64,000 nucleotides of DNA from Candidatus Eiseniibacteriota bacterium (GTDB lineage Bacteria > Orphanbacterota > Orphanbacteria > Orphanbacterales > Orphanbacteraceae), in assembly GCA_029262235.1 (NCBI GenBank), contig JAJCZU010000007.1, positions 1 through 64,000 of the forward strand, read 5' to 3'. The first letter of the stretch is position 1. Each line of letters begins with the position of its first letter. The position numbers and the translations under genes were made by a program. Shown piece by piece: positions 802-53,829 of this stretch. The notes under the pieces were generated by a model, which saw nothing but the letters and a program-made list of their open reading frames with translations, did not search any database and had not been told where the DNA came from.

Positions 802-1747
802 CAATCCCTCCGGCAGCGACCCCGCGCGCGTGATGAAGGACGATTTGCGATCTCTGCGCGAGATGCGGACGCACGACATGCCGGGATGGGAAAGTACGAA
901 ACGAACATTGGCGGCGAAATGCCGTACCAATAATGAAAGGAACGCAATCATGCGAACCGTAAACGATATGAATGATCGACGCTGGTTCAAGCCCGTGCTG
1001 GTCGGCGCCTTCGCCGCGCTGCTTCTTCTCGTGATTCCGATTTCGTACGAACGAACCACCGGACACACGGTAACGATGGATCTTGCCATTCCGAATTATC
1101 ACGACGGTCAGATCCAGACCCTCGCGAACGAACTGGCCGACGTGCTCGAGGCGACCGAACTTCGGATCGAGCCTCGACTCGGCCATGAGGGGCAGTTCGC
1201 GCTGATCGCGAGCACCGACTCGAAGAGCGGGCCCTATGTGAAGCGCGTATCGAATGCCTTTGCGGCCGCGGTCGGCGAGCGCGGTATCGACGCCGAAGCT
1301 TCGATCGAACCCGTACGCACGGAGATCTCGAGCAACGCCTACGCATTCGGACGTGAATGCGTTCTGCGCCTGAGCCTCGACACCGCCGGGCGTTTCGAGG
1401 ACGAAATCGAAGAAGACATTCGCCAGCAGATCATCGCGTCCGGTTGCTGCGACAATCCGCAGGTCTCCTACTCCGATCAGGGCGCCGTCAAGATCATCAG
1501 CATCGAGAACGAAGACGGCACGTCCGCGTGCATCGGCGGACTCACGATGGAAACGCTCAACGGAAACTTCGAGCTCGAGTTCGACGGCGAAGCGACGGGC
1601 GACATTCACATGATCAAGATGGAAGAGCTCGACGGCCTGACCGACGCCGACAAAGCCGAGGCGATCAAGCGCATCCTAAGCGAACAGGGCCTCGACTGGA
1701 GCAGCGTCACCGTCGAAGACGGCCTCGTCGACATCAAAGTCGAGTAG
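755..1747 (+). CDS. Single-pass membrane protein, candidate anti-sigma partner
   Basis: The gene starts inside the end of the sigma gene, with a near-perfect Shine-Dalgarno AAGGAGGAG at 742-750. The 330-residue product has a charged N-terminal part (about 1-78, predicted cytoplasmic), one membrane segment at about 79-98 (VLVGAFAALLLLVIPISY) and an acidic soluble C-terminal part with a Cys pair (GCCDN). That topology and the position next to an ECF sigma factor fit an anti-sigma factor or membrane sensor. I see no zinc-finger HxxxCxxC motif, so it is not the common ZAS type. No family is recognised; the anti-sigma role is inference from context. Confidence 0.6.
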   Translation: MRRHTHSNAHDPRQDSNPSGSDPARVMKDDLRSLREMRTHDMPGWESTKRTLAAKCRTNNERNAIMRTVNDMNDRRWFKPVLVGAFAALLLLVIPISYERTTGHTVTMDLAIPNYHDGQIQTLANELADVLEATELRIEPRLGHEGQFALIASTDSKSGPYVKRVSNAFAAAVGERGIDAEASIEPVRTEISSNAYAFGRECVLRLSLDTAGRFEDEIEEDIRQQIIASGCCDNPQVSYSDQGAVKIISIENEDGTSACIGGLTMETLNGNFELEFDGEATGDIHMIKMEELDGLTDADKAEAIKRILSEQGLDWSSVTVEDGLVDIKVE

Positions 1748-1805: not shown

Positions 1806-2119
1806 CTCTTCTCTTCCGCCCTCTTCTCCCCCTCCTCTTCCCGCCTCTTCTCTTCCTCCCCTCTTCCCTCTTCCCCCCTCTTCATTCCTCACTCTCTACA
1901 AGCATGTCGACGCGCTGGGCCGGGTGCGTGACCGGGCCCCCGGAGCTGAGCCCCATTGGAGGACCGCGGGCACGGCGTTCCCGTTTCGAGTCCCATTCAA
2001 GACGGTCCGACAGGGCGAAGCGAGGAGGAGCCGGTCACGTACCCGGCCCAACACGTCTGTCGTGCGCGGCACGGCGAGGAGGAGCCGGTCACGTACCCGG
2101 CCCAACACGTCTGTCGTGC
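1806..2119 (+). repeat. Dispersed structured element, copy A (CT tract plus inverted arms)
   Basis: This gene-free stretch between two convergent genes has the following layout. A polypyrimidine tract runs from 1806 to 1895. The 5' arm is at 1914-1935. Core box 1, TGAGCCCCATTGGAGG, is at 1947-1962. A variable 46-base segment follows. Core box 2 starts with GACAGGGCGAAG at 2009 and runs into a CGAGGAG-AGCC stretch. The 3' arm at 2031-2052 is complementary to the 5' arm at 20 of 22 positions. A second copy at 41909-42183 has the same core boxes, the same spacing (45 against 46 bases) and the same CT tract, but different arm sequences that again pair with each other. It is not a known element that I recognise. 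Confidence 0.75.
2020..2119 (+). repeat. Tandem 46-base repeat, period 54, inside element A
   Basis: The segment at 2020-2065 is repeated exactly at 2074-2119. It includes the end of core box 2 and the whole 3' arm, so copy A of the element carries two identical 3' arms that could each pair with the single 5' arm at 1914-1935. Copy B of the element lacks this duplication. Two units are too few, and too tightly spaced, for a CRISPR array. Confidence 0.85.
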
Positions 2120-2120
2120 C

Positions 2121-2675
2121 CTACTTCCCGCCCCAATCCTCTTTCAGGATCGCCCATCGTTCGTGATCGCGCCACTGGCCGGCAATTTTCAGGTAGCGCC
2201 GCGAGTATCCTTCGCGCGTGAAGCCCGCTCGCTGCACGAGTGCGATCGAGGCCTCGTTCGTCGGCTGAATGTTGGCTTCCACGCGATGCAGTTTCATCTC
2301 GCGAAACGCGTACCGGAGCGCGAGCGTGAGTCCCTCGGTCATGTAGCCGCGGCGCGCAAACGGGCTGCCGATCCAGTACCCCATGTAGGCGCTCTGAAAA
2401 CAGCCGCGGATAATCTCGCTGAGCGTAATGACGCCGACGATGGCGCCGTCTTCGGTGCGACAAAGGAGAAAGCGCTTTACGCTTTCGAGGTTGGCGGTCA
2501 TTTGAAATCGGGTGAACGCCTCGGAACCGTACGGGTCGAATCCTTTCGGCGGCGTCGGTTCCCAGGCCTTGTGGAAGCGTTTGCTCTTCTGCCTGAGCCT
2601 CACGAACTCATCCCGGTCGGCCATGACGGGGTAACGGATGAGCACGGTTTTTCCTGTCTGCAGCACGTCGTTCAA
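2121..2675 (-). CDS. GNAT acetyltransferase, RimJ/RimL type
   Basis: The 184-residue product has the RimJ/RimL layout: an N-terminal strand VLIRYPVMADRDEFV, a central strand AIVGVITLSEI, the acetyl-CoA loop region GYWIGSPFARRGYMTEGLTL, and the C-terminal motif ANIQPTNEASIALVQRAGFT. Such enzymes move an acetyl group from acetyl-CoA to an N-terminal or side-chain amine of a protein or small molecule; the substrate cannot be told here. The start used is TTG at 2675 because no in-frame ATG lies before the first strand. It converges on the sigma operon with repeat element A between them. Confidence 0.85.
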   Translation of the reverse strand: MNDVLQTGKTVLIRYPVMADRDEFVRLRQKSKRFHKAWEPTPPKGFDPYGSEAFTRFQMTANLESVKRFLLCRTEDGAIVGVITLSEIIRGCFQSAYMGYWIGSPFARRGYMTEGLTLALRYAFREMKLHRVEANIQPTNEASIALVQRAGFTREGYSRRYLKIAGQWRDHERWAILKEDWGGK

Positions 2676-2876: not shown

Positions 2877-3545
2877 CTAGCGAAAGAGCTCCTTGAACGA
2901 GCCCCACGAAGCCTCTTCGTTCGCCGTTGTCAGCTCGAGACCCGTGAAGAGCCAGTCGCGGGAGCCGGATGCGGCCCCGGGTTGCAGCCAGCCGGAGCCG
3001 GAAAAGACATCAGGGTCGTTTGCGATGGCGGCATTCCCTTTCGAGTCGGAATCATTGTCGAACAGGAACGAACAGCCCGAGCCGTTGGCCTTGTCCGTGA
3101 ATGCGTAGACGCCGTCGCCGCCCCAGCCGACGAGAGTCAGCGTGCCCCCGTTCAGCACGCTCTCCGAAGTGACATGGATGTCGTTTCCGGGCGCGCCCGT
3201 ACAATCGTCGGACTCGACGACATCAACAGAGTACGTAAAGTCGAGATCGATCCATCCCTGTTCCGTAACATCATAGCTGTGGCTCGTGATCTTTCCTCCG
3301 TAGGCGCTGCCCTGAATCGTGAACGACTCCCCGATCGGGTCGTAGGTCAGAAATACCGCGGCGCCGGGATAGTCGAAGCTGAACGTGTACACGGCGTCCG
3401 ACAGCAGGTCGTCGACGCGGAGCCCGTAGGCAGGCGGCGCCTCGGCCCCGTTCGGATGGTCGTGCAGCGCGTACACCTGGCCGAACGCGTCTGCGGCCGG
3501 AAGAGTGAGTGCGGCGAATACAAGTCCAGTCAGAAGCCTTCGCAT
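2877..3545 (-). CDS. Secreted protein of unknown function
   Basis: The chosen ATG has GGAG 10 bases upstream and opens with a clear signal peptide (MRRLLTGLVFAALTLPAADA, cleavage near AFG-Q). The mature part of about 200 residues is rich in Gly, Asp, Ser and aromatic residues, looks all-beta, and has Cys residues in SDDCTG and GSGCSFLF that could form a disulfide. No family is recognised. An extended -10 promoter lies about 65 bases upstream at 3610-3618. The 200 bases between this gene and the acetyltransferase hold nothing recognisable. Confidence 0.7.
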   Translation of the reverse strand: MRRLLTGLVFAALTLPAADAFGQVYALHDHPNGAEAPPAYGLRVDDLLSDAVYTFSFDYPGAAVFLTYDPIGESFTIQGSAYGGKITSHSYDVTEQGWIDLDFTYSVDVVESDDCTGAPGNDIHVTSESVLNGGTLTLVGWGGDGVYAFTDKANGSGCSFLFDNDSDSKGNAAIANDPDVFSGSGWLQPGAASGSRDWLFTGLELTTANEEASWGSFKELFR

Positions 3546-3609
3546 GGTTGTGTTTCTCCAGTTGTATGTTGGCTCGTTAAGCAGGAACCTTCGGGTTGTT
3601 GACGCCTCC

Positions 3610-40715: not shown

Positions 40716-40937
40716 ATGGCCATCGACAAAGATCTGCTCGAAATTCTCGCGTGCCCCGCGACCAAAGCACCCGTCGTTCTCGACGGCGGTTTTCTCGTCT
40801 CCACCGATCCCGCGACCCGGCGCCGCTACCGGATCGAAGACGACATTCCGAATATGCTCGTCGAAGAGTCCGAAGTGCTGCCCGAAGACGAGTGGCTCAC
40901 GATCATGAAACGGCACGGCGTCGACACCAGCAAGTGA
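40716..40937 (+). CDS. Trm112/UPF0434-family small protein
   Basis: A 73-residue protein with the family pattern DKDLLEILACPATKAPVVLD, then RRYRIEDDIPNMLVEES. Trm112-like proteins activate methyltransferases or act in other partnerships. Only one of the usual CPxC cysteines remains (CPAT), so zinc binding is doubtful. ATG 40716 has GAGGTG six bases upstream. Its stop overlaps the GTG start of the next gene (GTGA). Confidence 0.88.
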   Translation: MAIDKDLLEILACPATKAPVVLDGGFLVSTDPATRRRYRIEDDIPNMLVEESEVLPEDEWLTIMKRHGVDTSK

Positions 40938-41908
40938 GCGCCCTGCGGACCCCGCGCCGATTCCACGCTCTTCTTCCCTCGCTCGTTCTTATCTCATTTC
41001 TTACCGTCTCCGCTGTCCATGCCGATTCCACGCTCACCGAATCACCCGCACTCGGCCCAGCCGAGCACATTCTTCCCGACGCCGAAGGATTTCGCCCCGA
41101 ACTCTGGTCACCCGACGGCAACGCGCTCGTCCTCACCCGCGACCATCGCTACATTCGCATTCTCGACACGAAGTCCGGCCTGCTCTGGGACGTCTACTCC
41201 CTGACCGACCCCTCTCCCGTCCGCATTCCGATGGCCTGGGATTCCACCGGCGCCGCGCTTCGCTTCCTCGACTATCCCGCCGAAGCCATTCGCACCTACG
41301 ACCTGAAATCCGGCGCCCTCTCCGCGTTTCATGTGCGCGACCCGTTCCTGCTCCGCGAAATGTGGCGTGGCATAGAGGCGCCCGAAACGCGCGCGATCGT
41401 CTGGTGGGACCCGGTACGCGAATGGTGGTCTGCCTTTCGAGAGGGGGAGGGTCAGGGAATCAAACTAGTCGGCACACTATCGGAATTGCAAATGGATCGC
41501 ACTGTCTTTGATTTTTCTGGGGGCTGGACTGCGGACTTCAGGCATCGGCCCTCGGACCTTCTTGGAGTAGGCTCGAGAGAGATTCGGGTCGGCCCCTTGG
41601 ACAACGGACTCAGACATTCGCGGAACATCAATGACGATCTCGGGGACACGTCACGCCGGATTCCGGGAGTCCTGCCGACCTGGGAACCCGGGTGCACTCG
41701 TCTCTGGTATATCGCGGAGGATGCAGGGACGGAACCCGGCCTGCACGCCTACGAACCCCGCCTCGACTGGTACGAAAGGAGAGAGCATCACACCCGCTCG
41801 CTCGGCCCCCTCACCGGTGGACAAGTTCTCCACATCGCCATCGCACCAGGCGGGAAGCGCCTCGCCTGGCTCACGGCCTCCGGAATCTACACCGCCAATA
41901 TCGAGTAA
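40934..41908 (+). CDS. Secreted beta-propeller-like protein of unknown function
   Basis: The GTG start overlaps the Trm112 stop. The 324-residue product begins with a signal peptide (LLPSLVLISFLTVSAVHA). TolB/WD-like strands follow: RPELWSPDGNALVLTRDHRY, ILDTKSGLLWDVYSL, RTYDLKSGALSAF and, at the end, HIAIAPGGKRLAWLTASGIY. Between about 41430 and 41790 the codon use changes abruptly (CTA, TTG, AGA, AGG, GGA and TCT codons appear), while the frame stays open. The function is unknown. Confidence 0.7.
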   Translation: MSALRTPRRFHALLPSLVLISFLTVSAVHADSTLTESPALGPAEHILPDAEGFRPELWSPDGNALVLTRDHRYIRILDTKSGLLWDVYSLTDPSPVRIPMAWDSTGAALRFLDYPAEAIRTYDLKSGALSAFHVRDPFLLREMWRGIEAPETRAIVWWDPVREWWSAFREGEGQGIKLVGTLSELQMDRTVFDFSGGWTADFRHRPSDLLGVGSREIRVGPLDNGLRHSRNINDDLGDTSRRIPGVLPTWEPGCTRLWYIAEDAGTEPGLHAYEPRLDWYERREHHTRSLGPLTGGQVLHIAIAPGGKRLAWLTASGIYTANIE

Positions 41909-42183
41909 GACGCCCCGTCTCCTCCCCTCAATCGGCTCTCTACCTGCCCTCTTTTCCGGCTTCTTCTCTTCCTTTCTTCCTCTTCTCCTTCCGCCCTCTT
42001 CTCCCTTCCCCTCGCTCAAAGAGTGGGGGTGAGGGCGGGTGGGCGCGTGTCGGTTCCCCGCAGCCTGAGCCCCATTGGAGGGCCGGGCAACGATGACCTG
42101 GCAGTCTGAGTTTGTTACCGCGGCACGACAGGGCGAAGGCGAGGAGAAGCCGACACGCCCCACCCGCCCCCTCATCCCTACTC
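41909..42183 (+). repeat. Dispersed structured element, copy B
   Basis: This is the second copy of the element at 1806-2119, again between convergent genes. A CT-rich tract runs from about 41920 to 42015. The 5' arm is 42021-42055 and the 3' arm 42147-42183. Core box 1 (TGAGCCCCATTGGAGG) is at 42066-42081 and core box 2 starts with GACAGGGCGAAG at 42127. The arms are unrelated to those of copy A but pair with each other over about 35 bases. The substitutions I found between them keep G-U pairing in plus-strand RNA. The 3' arm overlaps the last codons and stop of the HAD gene. Confidence 0.75.
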
Positions 42184-42948
42184 CCACTTACCAATTCTTT
42201 TCAGCACCCCCCCCAACTCCCTGATCCCCTCAATCACGAAATCCGCATCATCCAGCTCGCCGTCCCGCCCGAAACCGTACAGGCACCCGACCGCCTTCGC
42301 CCCGATCCGCCGCGCACAGGCGACATCGTCCGCACGATCCCCGACAAAAGCGACGGCCTCGAGCGCCGGGAACGCCGACGCGATCTCGTTGGCCATTTCG
42401 GGTTTCTCGTCCTCGGGGGCCTGGCGATGCCGCACGCCGTGAAAGTACTTCTCGATCCGCTGCGACTTGAGCACGGTGCCGACATAGGGCTGCTGGCCGT
42501 TCGTGCAGATCCCGAGCGTGAAACCGGCACTGGTCAGCTCTTCGAGCATCTCGGGTACGCCGGGAAAGAGCCTGCCGTGGCTCGGCACGAGGTCGTTCTC
42601 GTGCACGATCACTTCCGCCGCGATCTCGGCGCCTGGCGCGATTTCTACGCCAGACGCGCGCGCGTCCCCCGACGCCTTCGCGCCGTGGGCATCGCAAAGG
42701 CCCGCGAGCCACTTCTGAAACTCGGCGGTCGGGATGCCGAAAAACGCCAGGATCTCGTCGCGGGGAGGGCACGGCACGCCGTACTTTTCGAATACATCCT
42801 GCACGGCCGTTACCGTAGCTTCGGCGCCGCTGAACAGCGTGCCGTCGAGGTCGAACAGAATCAGGCTCTCTGCGGGCACGACGGCGTGGAGTGGAAAGAC
42901 GCGATCGCCGGGGTCGCCGGCGCGGCGCGGTTTGCTGCGGTCGGTCAT
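42178..42948 (-). CDS. HAD-family phosphatase
   Basis: A 256-residue haloacid-dehalogenase-like hydrolase. Motif I is ILFDLDGTLF (nucleophile Asp33, acid Asp35), motif II is GICTNGQQPYV, motif III includes the Lys of DEKPEM, and motif IV is AFVGDRADDVACARRIGA. The cap domain lies between I and II. It looks like a phosphoglycolate-phosphatase-type enzyme, but the substrate cannot be named. The ATG is one base after the stop of the LamG-TPR gene, so the two are coupled. Its final codons lie within the 3' arm of repeat element B. Confidence 0.87.
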   Translation of the reverse strand: MTDRSKPRRAGDPGDRVFPLHAVVPAESLILFDLDGTLFSGAEATVTAVQDVFEKYGVPCPPRDEILAFFGIPTAEFQKWLAGLCDAHGAKASGDARASGVEIAPGAEIAAEVIVHENDLVPSHGRLFPGVPEMLEELTSAGFTLGICTNGQQPYVGTVLKSQRIEKYFHGVRHRQAPEDEKPEMANEIASAFPALEAVAFVGDRADDVACARRIGAKAVGCLYGFGRDGELDDADFVIEGIRELGGVLKRIGKWE

Positions 42949-53610: not shown

Positions 53611-53632
53611 TCGTGTACAAATGATTTCACGT

Positions 53633-53782
53633 TTCTTCGGGCTCTCAGGGAAAACGGTGCAAAACCGTTGCGGGCCCGCCGCTGTAACCGGGGACGAAAC
53701 CTGCAGTTCAGCCACTGTGACTCTGTCATGGGAAGGCGCAGGAAGTAGGACGATCCGGGAGCCAGAACACCTACCCGAAGAA
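53633..53782 (+). ncRNA. Cobalamin riboswitch
   Basis: The stretch has the conserved cobalamin-aptamer segments in order: AAAACGGTGCAAAACCGTTG, CGGGCCCGCCGCTGTAACCG, GCCACTGTGACTC, GGGAAGGCGCAGGAAGTAGG and the B12-box-like GGGAGCCAGAACACCTACC. The closing P1 stem is TTCTTCGGG with CCCGAAGAA. It lies 48 bases upstream of a BtuB-like receptor gene and should lower its expression when cobalamin is plentiful. Confidence 0.93.
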
Positions 53783-53829
53783 CCAACCGATGCAGGCTCG
53801 CGGATCGCGCCGGCATCCGGTCGTTTACC

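Follow-up and report, generated by a model that had tools for sequence, protein, structure and literature searches.

Stem-loop repeats in bacteria are usually read as selfish debris. Two distant intergenic loci in the window, meaning the whole stretch of 64,000 nucleotides analysed here, raise the question of whether they belong to such a family and whether that reading suffices for it. The 16-mer TGAGCCCCATTGGAGG occurs in exact form at 1947-1962 (copy A) and 42066-42081 (copy B) and nowhere else in the window, and GACAGGGCGAAG follows it after 46 bases in copy A, starting at 2009, and after 45 bases in copy B, starting at 42127. Core boxes common to two distant loci at this spacing had been taken in the original prediction to mark a new dispersed intergenic element with paired arms, and both loci indeed carry them. 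Taken alone, the 16-mer pair is weak evidence; two matches at up to three mismatches were also reached by 6 of 100 shuffles.

Copy A contains a 52-nucleotide inverted repeat (1909-1960 against 2006-2057, 73% complementary), and 46 nucleotides on its 3' side (2020-2065) are duplicated exactly at 2074-2119; the pairing arms and the repeated 3' arm described for this copy are thus both present. Copy A is flanked by convergent genes at 950-1747 (+) and 2121-2675 (-), and copy B by convergent genes at 40934-41908 (+) and 42178-42948 (-). A CT tract lies 5' of each copy. The features of the two loci are as follows.

1774-1805, + strand: hairpin resembling an intrinsic terminator, belonging to the upstream gene (its stop is at 1747) and adjoining the CT tract of copy A; 12 pairs and a T-rich tail, scored on the - strand
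1806-1885, + strand: polypyrimidine tract before copy A, associated with it and outside the core
1909-1940, + strand: outer 5' arm of copy A, copy-specific, partner of 2028-2057
1941-1962, + strand: 5' core box of copy A, with GAGCTGAGCCCCATTGGAGG at its end; holds the 5' half of each tandem G-A loop
1963-2008, + strand: variable inner arm of copy A, type 1 (type 2 in the ortholog of the congener)
2009-2027, + strand: 3' core box of copy A, GACAGGGCGAAGCGAGGAG
2028-2057, + strand: outer 3' arm of copy A
2074-2119, + strand: second, identical copy of 2020-2065 (3' arm and part of the 3' box), absent at the orthologous site of the congener
41929-42014, + strand: polypyrimidine tract before copy B
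42022-42059, + strand: outer 5' arm of copy B
42060-42081, + strand: 5' core box of copy B, GCAGCCTGAGCCCCATTGGAGG
42082-42126, + strand: variable inner arm of copy B, type 2, GGGCAACGATGA...CCGCGGCAC
42127-42147, + strand: 3' core box of copy B, GACAGGGCGAAGGCGAGGAGA
42148-42172, + strand: outer 3' arm of copy B; the stop of the antisense gene is at 42178

At the site matching the terminator-like hairpin at 1774-1805, the congener has an orthologous hairpin with T6. Elsewhere in the window, a cobalamin riboswitch lies at 53622-53792 (99.6 bits), and an ORF at 2877-3545 (-) is one of seven otherwise different ORFs that end in a C-terminal tag of approximately TExxSWGxVKxLFR-stop, the others being at C7:91695, C10:71472, C4:105698, C4:939718, C8:333838 and C2:1003735 (contig:position; the window belongs to C7). 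By its sequence the shared tag looks like a protein sorting signal. The tagged protein of the window had no Pfam or NCBIfam match, and two of the tails had no NCBIfam match. The orthologous loci of the congener lack the tagged genes found at window 2930-3604 and at C4:939078-939755, which suggests that such genes are gained or lost singly.

In the 4.47-Mb genome that contains the window, the 16-mer had 12 exact matches and 34 at up to two mismatches, far above the 2 of a reversed control pattern, and these counts settled that the family is real. A blastn search with copy A against its own genome returned 27 matches. The covariance model that had been proposed as a check was built from 21 long copies (R1) and found 28 long-form copies at 76-124 bits, plus a tail of shorter relatives; it matched copy A at C7:1928-2040 (98 bits) and copy B at C7:42046-42159 (103 bits). 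A second model, built from short forms (R2), found 83 matches in the same genome, approximately 60 of them other than long forms, including a third shape with a central TTGGCCAnnTGGCCA (TTGGCCA form) that often occurs in tandem arrays. The total for this genome is about 90 hairpins, and the congener (G001) has approximately 20 copies of the long and short kinds. With this many further copies in both genomes, a simple two-copy duplication is ruled out and the dispersed element of the original prediction is borne out. Hairpin copies or tandem arrays also stand at contig ends (C6:71-310, C3:631716-631959, C7:187472, C10:120652-121007 and C1:8-123), so the assembly probably breaks at the hairpins.

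The covariance models found no match in five other genomes of the same family (G002-G006), which together with the window's genome (G000) and the congener are all the genomes of the phylum in the comparison set, and R1 found none in 91 further genomes outside the phylum. When 84,980 species were scanned for the exact pattern, a single organism was hit, the MAG 'Gemmatimonadetes bacterium SS_bin_27' (JABDJQ01), at loci coinciding with those of G001; JABDJQ01 is also the name of an uncultured lineage of phylum rank close to Eisenbacteria and Latescibacterota (PMC11323493), to which the window, judging by the shared name, probably belongs. The hairpin family was found only in one genus of an uncultured bacterial phylum; Rfam does not contain it, and none of the other genomes searched has it. 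Samples of G002 (180 kb) and G005 (108 kb), inspected for related hairpins in other genera of the family, hold unrelated ones only. G005, from another genus of the family, has different, near-perfect hairpins of approximately 90 nucleotides with GGGGACACAATAC arms (L242, L244-L247, L249). With regard to a phage or plasmid origin, no match was found for copy A in phages, for copy B in plasmids, or for the long and short core patterns in viral contigs.

Every copy is one long imperfect hairpin of 115-190 nucleotides with no constant foot and no constant ends. From the outside inwards, a copy-specific stem leads to a loop (GCAG/CGA, GGA/GGA or GA/GA) and then to a short stem closing on pair 22:96, inward of which lie GA/GA, a 4-bp stem (GCCC/GGGC) and a CAU bulge. 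After the bulge, the tip of the short form is a TGGC-loop-GCCA apical hairpin, and that of the long form consists of UG/CA, a second GA/GA and a 5-bp stem with the variable inner arm. Given a plain MAFFT alignment of all 27 copies, RNAalifold did not recover the outer stem, owing to register shifts between copies; the pairing was therefore assigned manually and the pairs were counted. The outer arms of a copy form a mean of 25.0 Watson-Crick pairs with each other in long forms and 20.8 in short forms, and arms swapped between copies form only 6.3 and 3.9, respectively. Among 21 copies, 10 have C-G, 9 have U-A and 1 has G-C at pair 22:96, and the covariation score exceeded all 500 shuffles and every slid register. 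Both tandem GA/GA motifs are unrepaired in nearly all copies. Wobble counts showed little strand bias (GU 56 versus AC 38) and so do not single out one strand as an acting RNA.

The loci of the two species align at approximately 80-90%, which allowed orthologous copies to be compared. Across 14 orthologous long-form pairs, mean identity was 0.95 for the 5' core and 0.98 for the 3' core, with 0.74 for the inner arm, 0.76 and 0.78 for the outer arms, and 0.62 and 0.69 for the flanks. The state of pair 22:96 (T-A, C-G or G-C) varies between loci and was the same at a given locus in all 14 pairs, which means that the copies have been inherited locus by locus; the invariance of the core is therefore not explained by homogenisation. 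These alignments indicate probable selection on the core at each locus. The outer stems have undergone compensating changes at copy A, copy B (T-A to C-G) and C4:814431.

Gene calls covering 706 kb of the genome were used to place the elements relative to genes. Copies lie roughly 10-45 nucleotides past stop codons, at a median of 30 nucleotides (interquartile range 16-43), and 40 of 47 elements were antisense to the gene with that stop codon. Plain intrinsic terminators of this genome occupy the same slot, their median start being 40 nucleotides past the stop codon. Proximity to the stop codon of an antisense gene is a rule shared by the family. Two other properties claimed for the element, its location between convergent genes and a preceding CT tract, hold for copies A and B but not family-wide. 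Convergent gene pairs enclose only 27 of 60 short and 6 of 28 long copies, and a CT-rich tract lies within 175 nucleotides on the 5' side of 30 of 72 copies and on the 3' side of 1 of 72, as compared to 7 of 172 element-free intergenic stretches that contain one. The CT tract is an associated feature, seen with approximately 40% of copies, and lies outside the element proper.

Plain intrinsic terminators would fit this location, but the U-tract is mostly missing, being present in a minority such as C2:405484, C8:67794 and C4:106714. The foot of the stem shows a modest A/T skew. A plain terminator and an element are both present at six gene ends, and at C8:67504 a separate conserved terminator stands behind the element. 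The two species differ at C2:405484: a plain terminator, GGGCCGGATTCCCTCCGGCCC followed by T7, stands there in the congener, and a hairpin with the core, likewise with T7 behind it, in the window's genome.

Our leading reading, held tentatively and at a little under an even chance, is that these are genus-specific structured 3'-end hairpins that act at transcript ends and are retained and reshaped via template switching. In cis, the hairpin would serve as a 3'-end signal for pausing or termination and would also protect the mRNA end. One hairpin may often serve both genes of a convergent pair, and the conserved non-Watson-Crick tip would be bound by some factor. Template switching at replication would create, repair, one-sidedly duplicate and nest the stems. 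That the G-A mismatches survive, although such switching would remove them as well, argues for recognition of the folded core. We counted for the 3'-end role the family-wide spread, own-arm pairing, covariation, core constraint in orthologs, the stop-codon slot, the alternation at C2:405484 and the compensating changes, and against it the scarce U-tracts, the modest A/T skew, the coexistence with terminators, the small strand bias of wobble pairs and the empty orthologous sites.

Differences between the species bear on the next reading, in which the hairpins are selfish repeats without host function that spread by nesting and template switching, like the RHE, DHE and GC clusters of organelles. 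At three orthologous sites (C6:308.7 kb, C3:73.1 kb and C6:133.8 kb) the window's genome has a short form and the congener a long form, which, with its own stem, is nested within the outer arms of that same hairpin. Four sites (C4:940.9k, C4:941.8k, C4:948.9k and C8:67504) are filled in the window's genome and empty in the congener, with no clear target-site duplication, though the flanks are diverged. The inner-arm type was swapped in 3 of the 14 ortholog pairs, copy A included. Duplications of the 3' arm occur in 6 of 28 long copies and of the 5' arm in none, and they are lineage-specific, the ortholog of copy A being without the duplicate. Nesting, lineage-specific presence and absence, arm swaps, one-sided duplications and tandem arrays, several of them at contig ends, would all be at home among selfish repeats. 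If neutral, such repeats would be expected to decay at each locus as fast as the sequence beside them, but core identity is 95-98%, with variants that are locus-specific in 14 of 14 pairs, and neither a RAYT-type transposase, a reverse transcriptase nor constant ends were found. We consider this reading somewhat unlikely.

Further rearrangements were seen at individual loci. At C10:91880-92050 (L192), an 83-nucleotide insert, TCGTTACC...GCCTAACA, lies beside the GA loop of a short form, with its neighbour intact; the end of the insert may resemble an integron attC box. Integron attC sites, which have R and L boxes and go with an integron integrase, came into consideration because they too are bulged hairpins. 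In the congener, L138 4886-5012 and 5449-5620 are two more copies with a repeated 3' arm, outward-facing, and the region between them is wholly different between the species.

The long forms are clustered around the origin. The genome has a single dnaA match, at C7:160.7 kb, in a neighbourhood read by eye as gyrB-recF-dnaN-dnaA-yidC-jag-mnmE-mnmG, and the cumulative GC-skew minimum is at C7:157 kb when C1 (reversed), C7 and C10 (reversed) are joined, the C1-C7 join being backed by congener contig L140 and the C7-C10 join by a shared tandem array. On C1, C7, C10 and C11, which make up 9.7% of the genome and of which C11 is unplaced relative to the origin, lie 19 of the 28 long forms (binomial p 1.6e-13). 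With neighbouring copies collapsed by hand, about 9 of 17 loci are on C1, C7 and C10 (p about 5e-6, an estimate). REP/BIME, with gyrase and IHF, or parS/ParB act elsewhere as protein-bound chromosome sites, and a putative protein on the folded or duplex core might likewise make the family a DNA-level signal that organises the origin region. The closeness of the long forms to dnaA and the GC-skew minimum, the lack of any parS, with as many as two mismatches allowed, in the 402 kb that surround the origin, and wobble pairs with little strand bias are consistent with such a signal, which we nevertheless regard as improbable: the short forms are unclustered (10 of 61, p 0.07), element orientation around the origin is mixed, and stop-codon coupling with antisense polarity is unexpected of a segregation site. 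More doubtful still is a combination in which a protein or RNP recognising the tandem G-A core would, via approximately 16-19 copies over approximately 300 kb around oriC, couple transcript ends to the organisation of the origin region, the hairpins being built by insertion of one into the tip of another. At C7:169049-170242, no parA/parB pair, common elsewhere at this place, was seen by eye after rsmG; two short-form hairpins lie there.

Least probable of all, in our view, are small non-coding RNAs made from the + strand (the tandem G-A strand) and antisense to the adjacent 3' end, which the strand preference of sheared G-A geometry, the upstream CT tract (30 of 72 against 1 of 72) and the polarity (40 of 47) would suit, but for which Sigma-70-like promoters did not exceed chance over a scanned 20 kb (2 against 3.1 expected) with none at copy A, the GU excess was just 56 to 38, and no Rfam match was found.

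The family was also compared with known mobile kinds. The RAYT (Y1) transposase PF01797 had no match in G000 or G001 but did match in G003, in G004 and in 5 of 14 controls, and a RAYT-driven REP is rejected because neither the window's genome nor the congener has the transposase. A group II intron or retroelement is likewise rejected, since reverse transcriptase PF00078 had no match in the genome. The constant terminal inverted repeats of a MITE are lacking, as arms differ between copies and swapped arms fail to pair. Rfam 15 covariance models gave no match at gathering score at either window copy and none at E<=1 in six loci. The assertion that the element is not a REP, IS end or CRISPR withstood the tests that were run.

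The family comes with two species to compare, dozens of copies at orthologous positions, sites both filled and empty, and intermediates of nesting, and with such material selection per locus can be tested directly against mere mutational maintenance, as can the origin of long perfect stems. Invariant mismatches within freely changing stems are hardly explained by template switching alone, and the origin clustering of one form, the long one, was unexpected.

Among known systems, REP/BIME resemble the family as GC-rich hairpins that occupy 3' intergenic regions in pairs and tandem arrays, and their effects on 3' ends are known in E. coli; however, they are palindromes of 20-40 nucleotides with a GTAG foot, whereas the hairpins described here measure 115-190 nucleotides, with a multi-loop core and no constant foot. 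Intrinsic terminators share the slot behind the stop codon, the T-rich tails of some short forms and the one site of alternation, but lack the conserved long multi-loop tip, and most copies here lack a U-tract. Template switching, argued to be capable of generating hairpins and of keeping them intact (Monttinen and Loytynoja 2022, PMC8794818), accounts for the perfect copy-specific stems and the multi-base compensatory changes; in contrast, the G-A mismatches, which switching would also repair, are invariant. The SLS families of bacteria are mostly intergenic repeats with a common secondary structure (Cozzuto et al. 2008, PMC2267715). The present family likewise comprises numerous intergenic copies that are predicted to fold alike, but its copy-specific outer arms, conserved core, nesting and per-locus selection signal in orthologs set it apart. 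RHE and DHE of mitochondrial DNA are intergenic hairpins that have spread in the genomes of close relatives and differ between them (PMC2800124). The hairpins described here also spread within the genomes of close relatives, but on a bacterial chromosome, tied to stop codons and strongly retained at orthologous sites. The family fits intergenic stem-loop repeats in the broad sense and resembles the hairpin elements of organelles.
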